Source: Bacteroidia bacterium (lineage in GTDB: Bacteria; Bacteroidota; Bacteroidia; JANWVE01). From it: a stretch of DNA of 32,723 nucleotides. The DNA lies in contig JANWVW010000008.1 of NCBI GenBank assembly GCA_025056095.1, positions 1-32,723 on the forward strand, in the 5' to 3' direction. Positions 1,414 to 32,723 of this stretch are shown here, in pieces. The position numbers were made by a program, and so were the translations under genes. Below the pieces are notes generated by a model. That model was not told where the DNA came from and did not search any database. It was given only the letters and a program-made list of their open reading frames with translations. How positions within the stretch are numbered: position 1 is the stretch's first letter; each line of letters starts with the position of its first letter.

Positions 1414-1759
1414 GGGCGTGCCCTTGTGGGCGTTTCGCTGCGCTCATGCCCACAAGGTCGGCGTGCTTCGGGCTACGCTATCGCTTCGGTGCTTCGCTTC
1501 GCTACGCACTGGGCTAACGCCCACCCTTCGCATGCCTCACGCAAGGGATCTCTGAAACCATCGTTTCTTTGTTTCTTATGCCAAGTTTTAGCTTGTAAGT
1601 GATTGTACTTCAAGCTTAAACAAGGTAAAGACATAACTGCACAGGTCAACTGCGTGAGGGGCATGGAGCATGCCGTTAGGCAGTGCGAAGCGTTAGCGAA
1701 GTACCGAAGCGAAGCGCAGTGCGGAATGCCCCGACCCTTGCGCAGCAAGGGGCACGCCC
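1414..1759. repeat. Palindromic GC-rich repeat, copy A (long form)
   Basis: A GC-rich inverted-repeat element in AT-rich DNA. The left arm (1414-1543) starts GGGCGTGC, continues with a 10-bp stem hairpin (CCTTGTGGGC/GCCCACAAGG) and TCGG, and ends CCTCACGCA. The right arm (1651-1759) starts TGCGTGAG and ends CCGA, a 7-bp stem hairpin (CCCTTGC/GCAAGGG) and GCACGCCC. T7 precedes and A6 follows. About 107 AT-rich bases lie between the arms with no convincing gene. It lies between the convergent MazG-like gene and udk. Open frames read through it are by-products of the palindromes. It shares the 12-mer AAACAAGGTAAA (1618-1629) with the interior of the Rpn-carrying element (13649-13660). Confidence 0.9.
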
Positions 1760-13156: not shown

Positions 13157-13229
13157 TGGTAATGGAGGGAATCGAACCCCCGACACAAGGATTTTCAGTC
13201 CTTTGCTCTACCAACTGAGCTACATTACC
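13157..13229 (-). tRNA. tRNA-Phe (GAA)
   Basis: A 73-base cloverleaf on the minus strand. The 7-bp acceptor stem is GGTAATG/CATTACC with A as discriminator; D-arm GCTCAGTTGGTAGAGC; the anticodon loop CTGAAAA carries GAA, which decodes Phe codons; the T arm contains GGTTCGATTCC. CCA is not encoded. A complete promoter lies 20 bases upstream, and a shared terminator follows at 13127-13152. Confidence 0.97.
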
Positions 13230-13455: not shown

Positions 13456-13585
13456 GGGCGTGCCCTTGCCCACACTTCGCTGCGCTTGTGTGGGCAAGGT
13501 CGGCGTGCTACGGGCTACGCTATCGCTTCGGTGCTTCGCTGCGCTTCGCACTGGGCTATCGCCCACCCTCCGCATGCCTCACGCA
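13456..13585 (+). repeat. GC-rich repeat arm, copy B
   Basis: Left end of the Rpn unit. GGGCGTGC is followed by a 12-bp stem (CCTTGCCCACAC, GTGTGGGCAAGG) whose inner sequence differs from the other copies yet is fully paired, then TCGG, the TATCGCTTCGGTGCTTCGC tract, a small GGGC-TATC-GCCC hairpin (13553-13564), and CCTCACGCA. Confidence 0.9.
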
Positions 13586-13705: not shown

Positions 13706-14689
13706 ATGATAAAAATTGCCAATCCTGCGTATGACGTTGTATTCAAGTATTTGATGGAAGATAACAAAATTGCCAAGCTACTTTTATCGGATTTATTGCA
13801 GGAAGAGATTATTGAACTTGAAGTCAGACCGCAGGAATACATAATGGATGTTATTTCCATGACTGTGTATCGCATAGATTTTAATGCTAAAATAAAGAAC
13901 GCCGATGGCACAGAAAAAGTAGTCTTAATAGAAGTACAAAAAGCTAAATTTCCTACGGATATTTTACGGTTTAGGCGGTATTTAGCAGAACAGTACAGGG
14001 CAGAACAAAACTTGATGAGAACAGAAAAAGATAGGTTCAAAGCTTTACCGATTATTAGGGTATATTTTTTAGGTTATCCCTTGTCAAGCAATCCACCGTA
14101 TCCTGTAATCCGCGTACGCAGGAGTGTTACGGATAACAGCACGCAGGAAGTCATTGACATAAAAGATGAGTTTATTGAGTCTTTGACACATGATTGTGTG
14201 ATAGTACAGATACCGAAGTTAAAAGAGACACGGCGAAATGAGTTAGAGATGATATTGTCTTTGCTTGATGAGCAGGAGTATAAGTATGAGATTAGTATCA
14301 ATGAGGAGGATTATCCTGAGCGGTATCGTGAGGTAATAAGGCGGTTGTTGAAGGCAGCTGCGTCGGAGGAGGTAAGGAAGAGCATGGAGATAGAGGATGA
14401 GATAATAGAGAGTTTTAAGATGGTAGAACGAGATAAAGAGAAATTAGCAGAGGAATTAAAGTGGGAAAAACAACGTGCAGAACAAGAAAAACAACGCGCA
14501 GAACAACAAAAACAACGCGCAGAGCAAAAAGAAAAAGAACTAGAGCAAGAAAAGCAACGCGCAGAACAGTTAGAGCAAGATAAAATCAATATGATAAAGG
14601 AGATGCTCAAACAAGGTATATCCAAAGAGGTAGTCATGCAGATTGCCAAAGTAGACGAAGTATTTTTAAGAAAACATAATTTGATGTGA
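13706..14689 (+). CDS. Rpn-family PD-(D/E)XK nuclease / putative transposase
   Basis: A 327-residue protein of the Rpn (recombination-promoting nuclease, formerly transposase_31/PD-(D/E)XK transposase) type. The opening NPAYDVVFKYLMEDNKIAKLLLSDLL is typical, and the nuclease core is visible as YRIDFNAKI (Asp) followed by VVLIEVQKAKFPTDILRFRRY (the E-x-Q variant). Residues about 253-287 are heptads of EKQRAEQ type, predicted coiled coil, and the end (MIKEMLKQGISKEVVMQIAKVDEVFL) resembles the small helical tail of this family. Known Rpn proteins promote RecA-independent recombination and cleave DNA. It is the sole cargo of the inverted-repeat unit 13456-14942 and has its own -7 box; no stop or frameshift is seen. 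Confidence 0.88.
   Translation: MIKIANPAYDVVFKYLMEDNKIAKLLLSDLLQEEIIELEVRPQEYIMDVISMTVYRIDFNAKIKNADGTEKVVLIEVQKAKFPTDILRFRRYLAEQYRAEQNLMRTEKDRFKALPIIRVYFLGYPLSSNPPYPVIRVRRSVTDNSTQEVIDIKDEFIESLTHDCVIVQIPKLKETRRNELEMILSLLDEQEYKYEISINEEDYPERYREVIRRLLKAAASEEVRKSMEIEDEIIESFKMVERDKEKLAEELKWEKQRAEQEKQRAEQQKQRAEQKEKELEQEKQRAEQLEQDKINMIKEMLKQGISKEVVMQIAKVDEVFLRKHNLM
14465..14569 (+). repeat. 21-base tandem repeat in the Rpn-family gene
   Basis: Five consecutive 21-base units code the heptads EKQRAEQ, EKQRAEQ, QKQRAEQ, KEKELEQ and EKQRAEQ. The period equals one coiled-coil heptad, so copy-number change would keep both reading frame and coiled-coil register. Confidence 0.85.
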
Positions 14690-14824: not shown

Positions 14825-14942
14825 TGCGTGAGGCATGCGAAGGGCGTGCGTTAGCACGGTGCGGAGCGAAGCGAAGCACCGAAGCGTTAGCGTAGCCCGT
14901 AGCACGCCGACCTTGTGGGCTTTTGCCCACAAGGGCACGCCC
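14825..14942 (-). repeat. GC-rich repeat arm, copy C
   Basis: Right end of the Rpn unit, inverted relative to copy B. Read on the plus strand it runs TGCGTGAGG ... CCGA, a 10-bp hairpin CCTTGTGGGC-TTTT-GCCCACAAGG with only a 4-base loop, then GCACGCCC and A8. The inner small hairpin is CGTGC-GTTA-GCACG (14845-14858), another paired variant of the GGGC/GCCC stem in copies A and B. Confidence 0.9.
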
Positions 14943-24088: not shown

Positions 24089-24212
24089 CATAGGTTATGG
24101 GACAAAGACAGGTTAAAAAACTCAAAAGCTGTTCAAATAATTGAGTTTTGAGTTCGAACAAGCTACATAGCTTTTTTTTTCAAAAATAAGAAGTTTTTTT
24201 GCTAATTTTTTT

Positions 24213-24318
24213 GGGCGTGCCCTTGTGGGCATTTCGCTTGCGCTCATGCCCACAAGGTCGGCGTGCTACGGGCTATGTGCGAAATGCCCCGACCCTTGCG
24301 TTAGCAAGGGGCACGCCC
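24213..24318 (+). repeat. Palindromic GC-rich repeat, copy D (short form)
   Basis: A complete 106-base unit that splits exactly into pairing parts: GGGCGTGC; stem CCTTGTGGGC with a 17-base loop and GCCCACAAGG; TCGG with a 27-base arm and CCGA; stem CCCTTGC, loop GTTA, GCAAGGG; and GCACGCCC. T7 precedes and A6 follows. It lies between the convergent fusA and GNAT genes. Apart from small changes it is the same unit as copy E in the opposite orientation. Confidence 0.92.
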
Positions 24319-24349
24319 AAAAAATAAAATCAACCTCATAATCAAATTA

Positions 24350-28481: not shown

Positions 28482-28586
28482 GGGCGTGCCCCTTGCTAAC
28501 GCAAGGGTCGGGGCATTCCGCACATAGCCCGAAGCACGCCGACCTTGTGGGCATGAGCGAAGCGAAACGCCCACAAGGGCACGCCC
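28482..28586 (-). repeat. Palindromic GC-rich repeat, copy E (short form)
   Basis: A complete 105-base unit, inverted relative to copy D: GGGCGTGC; CCCTTGC-TAAC-GCAAGGG; TCGG with a 27-base arm and CCGA; CCTTGTGGGC with a 16-base loop and GCCCACAAGG; GCACGCCC. T7 precedes and A5 follows. It lies between the convergent tsaD and UPRTase genes, ending only 9 bases from the latter's stop. Confidence 0.92.
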
Positions 28587-32640: not shown

Positions 32641-32723
32641 GGGCGTGCCCTTGTGGGCGTTTCGCTTCGCTCATGCCCACAAGGTCGGCGTGCTTCGGGC
32701 TACGCTATCGCTTCGGTGCTTCG
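32641..32723 (+). repeat. GC-rich repeat, copy F (cut by the window end)
   Basis: T7, then GGGCGTGC, the CCTTGTGGGC/GCCCACAAGG hairpin with a 16-base loop, TCGG and the CTACGCTATCGCTTCGGTGC tract that marks the long form as in copy A. The window ends inside it, so cargo and right end cannot be seen. Confidence 0.88.

Follow-up and report, generated by a model that had tools for sequence, protein, structure and literature searches.

A 106-nucleotide Inverted Pair of Structured, Flavo-1-related Units as the Probable Smallest Form of a Putative Mobile Repeat Family in a Bacteroidia Genome

Introduction

The described systems closest to the repeat reported here are the REP/BIME sequences with their RAYT (TnpA-REP) gene, the MITEs, the Rfam family Flavo-1 (RF01705) and, for the gene that some copies enclose, the Rpn/YhgA-like nucleases (TIGR01784, PF04754). 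MITEs, such as the IS982-derived MITE of Cardinium (PMC9769881), are short, non-autonomous elements with terminal inverted repeats, fixed internal deletions and many copies. Flavo-1 entered the literature among the candidate structured RNAs of Bacteroidetes (Weinberg et al. 2010, PMC2864571), and its catalogue entry is that of an sRNA and not of a mobile repeat; in the transcriptome of F. psychrophilum its matches show no preference for sense or antisense, and many fall outside transcripts (PMC9723704). For the Rpn proteins, one study reports that they promote RecA-independent recombination (PMC5350276), and another describes them as anti-phage toxin-antitoxin genes (PMC10327210).

We analysed a window of 32,723 nt, a contig of a Bacteroidia bacterium (JANWVW010000008.1), in which a sequence-only reading had singled out a repeat of 105-106 nt that divides exactly into four arms, had likened it to a cloverleaf or Holliday junction and had judged it more elaborate than a REP hairpin. 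Here we show that this repeat is a fusion of two truncated copies of a larger structured unit that belongs with Flavo-1. Structured MITE/BIME-like repeats are already known as a kind; what is new is that Flavo-1 is brought together with the three-way unit and the inverted pairs. In the literature searched we found no earlier description of the family of units and pairs, although one may still exist, and among the matches listed for its terminal sequence GGGCGTGCCC there was no paper on a Bacteroidota repeat.

Results

The exact four-way division stands. Read directly, the strands of element D (Table 1) abut with zero unpaired bases at the junction, and the third arm is irregular past its TCGG/CCGA pairs. 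Folded as RNA, D reaches -61.5 kcal/mol compared with -42.7 +/- 3.6 for 200 dinucleotide shuffles (z -5.2), and folded as DNA it gives z -5.1 on the + strand and -5.2 on the - strand, with 0 of 200 shuffles folding equally well as either RNA or DNA. Element E, the second copy, does lie in the other orientation and, when folded together with its flanks, yields four arms equal to those of D. The D-type repeat is, as had been held, more elaborate than a REP hairpin.

Table 1. Positions of repeat elements, parts of element D and the Rpn-like gene in the window
Feature	Position	Strand	Basis or remark
Element A, left unit (L type)	1414..1542	+	R1 E 5.7e-4
Element A, right unit (R type)	1652..1759	-	R1 E 2.6e-5
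Element A, whole	1414-1759		~347-nt inverted pair
Element B, L unit upstream of Rpn-like gene	13456..13584	+	R1 E 2.1e-3
ORF, 327 aa, Rpn-like PD-(D/E)XK nuclease/putative transposase	13706..14689	+	TIGR01784 E 1.2e-6; EVQ at residues 76-78
Element C, L unit downstream of Rpn-like gene	14826..14942	-	R1 E 1.3e-5
T-run outside D	24206..24212	+	Sequence; A-run 24319-24324 at the other side of D
Element D, minimal 106-nt inverted pair	24213..24318	+	Left unit positions 1-65 fused to right unit positions 1-42
D outer stem, 5' strand	24213..24220	+	Pairs with 24311-24318, 8 bp; sequence
D hairpin 1 (P2 of left unit), 10 bp	24221..24257	+	24221-24230/24248-24257; compensatory changes
D TCGG...CCGA arm	24258..24292	+	TCGG 24258-24261/CCGA 24289-24292, 4 bp; fused P3-arm remnants of both units
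D hairpin 2 (P2 of right unit), 7 bp	24293..24310	+	24293-24299/24304-24310
Right half of D	24261..24318	-	R1 match, E 0.005
Element E, second D-type copy, 105 nt	28482..28586	-	Opposite orientation to D
Right half of E	28482..28539	+	R1 match, E 0.005
Element F, L unit cut by contig end	32641..32723	+	R1 only 32641-32705, E 1.9

The genome that carries the window (G000; 3.05 Mb in 397 contigs, 97.7% complete) was covered over 1.81 Mb in the repeat counts, with a GC content of 37% over that part, and these 1.8 Mb hold 63 D-type copies. Across 56 aligned copies the outer stem is retained in 45, hairpin 1 in 50, the TCGG/CCGA arm in 50 and hairpin 2 in 49; 39 copies keep all four arms, no arm having more than one broken pair, in line with the expectation that the pairings of D would recur elsewhere in the genome, and 17 fail at least one arm. 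Standard pairs fill 92.6% of the pair cells compared with 88.3% after shuffling. Helix by helix, hairpin 1 is 95.3% paired versus 83.4% when shuffled (0 of 300 shuffles reach it), and the corresponding values are 90.4% versus 90.0% for the outer stem, 87.5% versus 87.3% for TCGG/CCGA and 94.4% versus 94.0% for hairpin 2. Compensatory changes are found in 6 of the 10 pairs of hairpin 1, each in up to 17 copies, such as GTGGGC/GCCCAC becoming GCCCAC/GTGGGC, and the shuffle test on the 56 copies detected no compensation beyond column composition in the outer stem, the TCGG/CCGA arm or hairpin 2. The copies therefore retain the fold mainly through shared descent, with visible structural constraint on hairpin 1 only, and D is not a conserved four-way junction: the cloverleaf or Holliday-junction-like shape is exact as a fold and does not hold as a conserved entity.

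The constrained structure is instead the three-way junction of the complete unit, which brings the two ends of the unit together on one strand. An intact unit of ~85-140 nt runs from a T-run through GGGCGTK, hairpin P2, GGTCGGGC and a long arm P3 with a variable tip to MACGC; its 5' GCGTG pairs with its own 3' CACGC, and the unit ends read as GGGCGTG...CACGC. In the G000 genome the unit comes in an L type of 131 nt and an R type of 110 nt, both spanning from the T-run and GGGCGTG through CCTCACGC. The pattern TTTGGGCGTNNCC-(8-36)-GGTCGGGC is present in 25 of 395 sampled Bacteroidota genomes, compared with one match for the reversed-pattern control, and the gap between the two motifs is usually a hairpin of unrelated sequence, P2 being freely variable among units. 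Elsewhere, one genome from another family carries about 78 units, and two single-contig genomes carry 26-30. The closing stem P1 is GCGTG/CACGC in 20 units and GCGTT/AACGC in 9, with none discordant (chance about 1e-7). Among 24 aligned units from other genera, double changes affect 11 of 21 pairs, the covariation score is 0.326 compared with 0.120 for shuffled alignments (0 of 500), all three stems covary and the whole-structure measures lie above nearly every shuffle and every slid control; RNAalifold, unaided, predicts a matching core. The excess of G.T over A.C on the unit strand is weak (29 versus 12, p 0.01), and D-type copies do not have it (70 versus 56).

A covariance model trained on units of other genera only (R1) returned as its six best matches in the window element C, the right and left units of A, element B and one half each of D and E, and it also matched many units elsewhere in the same genome and genus. 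Because R1 was trained elsewhere, the kinship of the window units with those of other genera is tested and not assumed. In the R1 alignments the window units show the closing stem GCGTG/CACGC, and by sequence their P3 arm pairs GGCGTGC with GCATGCC in the L type and GGGGCAT with ATGCCCC in the R type.

Set against this unit, D is a head-to-head fusion of two 3'-truncated repeat units. The modules that it keeps are the T-run, GGGCGTG, the P2 hairpin and TCGG, and since both 3' ends are lost, its outer stem is the terminal inverted repeat of two outward-facing units. The internal 65/42 junction is identical in 38 of 50 pairs, and three groups of identical D-type copies lie in unrelated flanks. 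We also observed a form of ~53 nt, smaller than D, with the terminal repeats and one P2 hairpin only (L106:12155-12210, L108:12880-12930 and L254 upstream of the match).

The end motif GGGCGTG[C/T]CC occurs over 400 times in the 1.81 Mb, and many contigs end within one. Units stand alone or as facing pairs with their 5' ends outward, tail-to-tail pairs closer than 1 kb being absent from the 1.8 Mb, and T6 GGGCGTGCCC is the terminal inverted repeat at both ends of 107 pairs. The sizes of the facing pairs cluster at 104-106, 333-353, 563-616 and 1,301-1,500 nt; B and C of the window face each other in a pair of 1,487 nt. The interior of the ~570-nt pairs contains four palindrome-like repeats of ~45 nt, TTYAAYCTTGT...ACAAGRTAAAA (L108:4098-4354), which are recognisable also beside the Rpn-like ORF of the window. 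A T-run/hairpin/A-run motif, TTTTTTGCGCCCCCGCTTCGCGGGGGCGCAAAAAA and similar, adjoins solo units (L148 near 2841, L058 near 8153) and is possibly a separate repeat.

The pairs are intergenic, with only one mid-size pair and nine solo units inside ORFs. They lie between convergent genes in 35 of 100 cases versus 59 of 478 (p 3e-7) and are depleted between divergent genes. Nearly all units have a T-run and C depletion upstream: over the last 40 nt approaching a unit C drops from about 16% to 2-3% and T increases, as at 24170-24212 of the window, which reflects either a target preference or a C-to-T mutational trace. G shows a corresponding depletion on the downstream side of solo units. For the 107 pairs there was no convincing enrichment of a target-site duplication at any offset from 2 to 10 nt, and we therefore infer insertion from dispersal. 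The search for empty sites within G000 returned flank matches that are other copies of the family, and comparison with two genomes of the same genus, G001 (a MAG) and G002, gave no clean empty and filled site at about 77-84% identity. At the D and E loci G002 is without the element, with the neighbouring genes differing between the species too, and G001 carries there a pair of ~600 nt and a short form with a single hairpin.

Each of four gene-sized pairs (1,300-1,500 nt) encloses one ORF of about 325-360 codons. The window ORF scores 28.6 bits against TIGR01784, below the curated cut-off of 52.1; three Rpn-like copies score 28.6, 35.7 and 22.9 bits, and for each of them TIGR01784 is the best NCBIfam family. 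In the 1.8 Mb, every one of the four complete Rpn-like genes is enclosed by a gene-sized facing pair (chance about 1e-11); a fifth gene, truncated where its contig ends, has a unit next to its intact side, and the Rpn-like genes of G001 are enclosed by units as in G000. The end types around these genes are mixed, being L/L, L/R or R/L. G002 has 33 rpn matches, and 0 of the 10 loci examined there are flanked by a GGGCGTG unit; 15 other unit-bearing genomes contain no TIGR01784 gene. The Rpn protein tree requires at least three changes between the flanked and the unflanked state, so rpn genes and unit ends are not one travelling lineage. One unit pair of G001 holds two Rpn-like genes in tandem (L191; G001:C333), and a unit-less Rpn-like gene of G002 has imperfect direct repeats at its sides (L199:1396-1479 and 2517-2645; G002:C162). 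A tRNA gene (RF00005; window 13157-13229, - strand) adjoins the B-rpn-C element, whose insertion may be old because G001 (L212) has the same rpn-plus-unit neighbourhood.

Searched with Rfam, the window gave nothing but a tRNA and one chance match under the threshold, and the Flavo-1 model had no match in the window or in G000. Among 20 unit loci tested, all but one from other genera, Flavo-1 matches 17 with E values under 0.01 and one more at E 0.08, and the Rfam gathering cut-off is reached by 8 of 20 unit loci from other genera. The matches are always on the opposite strand of the unit and span P3 only. The unit belongs with Rfam Flavo-1, which is one arm of it, and the units of G000 have diverged too far for the Rfam model to match them.

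Discussion

We conclude that D is probably the smallest non-autonomous form of a MITE/BIME-like mobile family whose elements pair the structured unit with an inverted second copy. That D has been amplified suggests that a pair of inverted 5' modules suffices for mobilisation in trans, and 106 nt is likely to be the minimal mobile substrate, as narrowed by the ladder of deletion forms. In the mechanism that we propose, an enzyme encoded elsewhere would recognise the 5' modules, probably in folded single-stranded form, and the element would be copied into T-rich, C-poor intergenic sites without target duplication; the motor, the strand and the reaction are what we infer here. No transposase with these ends was identified.

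On balance, the Rpn-like genes appear to us to be passengers, selfish or defence genes that spread inside mobile pairs, which is compatible with D as the minimal form of a mobile family. At least three rpn lineages have gained or lost flanking units, rpn occurs without units in G002 and units occur without rpn in the 15 genomes, and the anti-phage role described in PMC10327210 would suit such genes, although the enclosure of every complete rpn gene seen in G000 and G001, and of hardly any other gene, is then left unexplained. That enclosure (4 of 4 complete genes in the 1.8 Mb of G000, with enclosure in G001 too) is what speaks for the nuclease as the motor in this genus, with the 1.3-1.5 kb pairs autonomous and D and the pairs of ~347 and ~570 nt as deletion derivatives. 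Parts of the ~347- and ~570-nt interiors do match the gene flanks in the large pairs, pairs and flanked rpn co-occur in both genomes, and promotion of RecA-independent recombination by Rpn proteins, reported in PMC5350276, is consistent with such a role. The unflanked loci of G002, from the same genus, the 15 genomes without the gene, the repeated changes of the flanked state and the mixed end types all count against it. Rpn as a general motor was rejected because of those 15 unit-bearing genomes, and since the link between Rpn and the units fails to generalise we prefer passenger status and treat a motor confined to this genus as a minority reading, and an unlikely one. The genus of the window nevertheless adds a tight local link to Rpn nucleases. 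It is a doubtful proposal that Rpn-family PD-(D/E)XK nucleases here mobilise Flavo-1-type inverted pairs in a REP/RAYT-like manner, with the 106-nt pair as minimal substrate; if true, the "putative transposase" label of Rpn proteins would gain its missing ends.

The strong covariation of the units, their slight G.T excess and the cataloguing of Flavo-1 as a candidate structured RNA (PMC2864571) would all be accounted for if Flavo-1 and its kin were functional regulatory RNAs, the covariation then being that of an RNA structure. We find this improbable: the Rfam models run on the strand opposite to that with the G.T excess, P2 is free to vary in sequence, closely similar intergenic copies number in the hundreds per genome here, and the indifference to sense or antisense in F. 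psychrophilum, with many matches untranscribed (PMC9723704), is expected of Flavo-1 as a dispersed DNA repeat. Much less likely again is selection on the four-way junction itself for use by a resolvase or nucleoid protein as a cruciform or Holliday-like site. Its exactness, with zero spare bases and z near -5, would suit such a site, but the outer, TCGG/CCGA and right arms are without compensation beyond column composition, the junction is absent from complete units and larger pairs, and 17 of the 56 copies do not have all four arms; nothing found in the analysis points to a Holliday-junction substrate. We give least credence to a bidirectional transcription terminator, to which GC-rich hairpins between convergent genes might be assigned, since on both strands the stem is preceded by the T-run and followed by the A-run, the reverse of the hairpin and U-run of an intrinsic terminator, which we rejected on that ground.

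On these data, Flavo-1 is recast as one arm of a larger structured DNA repeat in several Bacteroidota families. To our knowledge no function has been assigned to this RNA family since its proposal in 2010. Its extent is corrected, and probably its strand too, and dispersed-repeat behaviour is indicated over that of a regulatory RNA.

The family is like REP/BIME with RAYT in having high-copy, intergenic structured units that occur solo or as inverted pairs, some of which enclose a nuclease gene. The REP/BIME unit is a palindrome of 20-40 nt, whereas the unit described here is a three-way junction of about 100 nt, and the gene enclosed here is Rpn-like; the Y1 (HUH) transposase (PF01797) is absent from the 97.7%-complete G000 genome and was found in five control genomes. 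The characteristics given above for MITEs recur in these elements, terminal inverted repeats included, but the ends are folded, the target-site duplication is lacking and a parental DDE transposase was not found. With the Rpn/YhgA-like nucleases the window ORF has the E-x-Q motif and the best family in common; the structured inverted units that flank it are not mentioned in the searched passages of PMC5350276. Flavo-1 and the unit share the P3 arm, to which the unit adds three parts that the Flavo-1 model does not contain, namely the closing stem P1, the hairpin P2 and the T-run.
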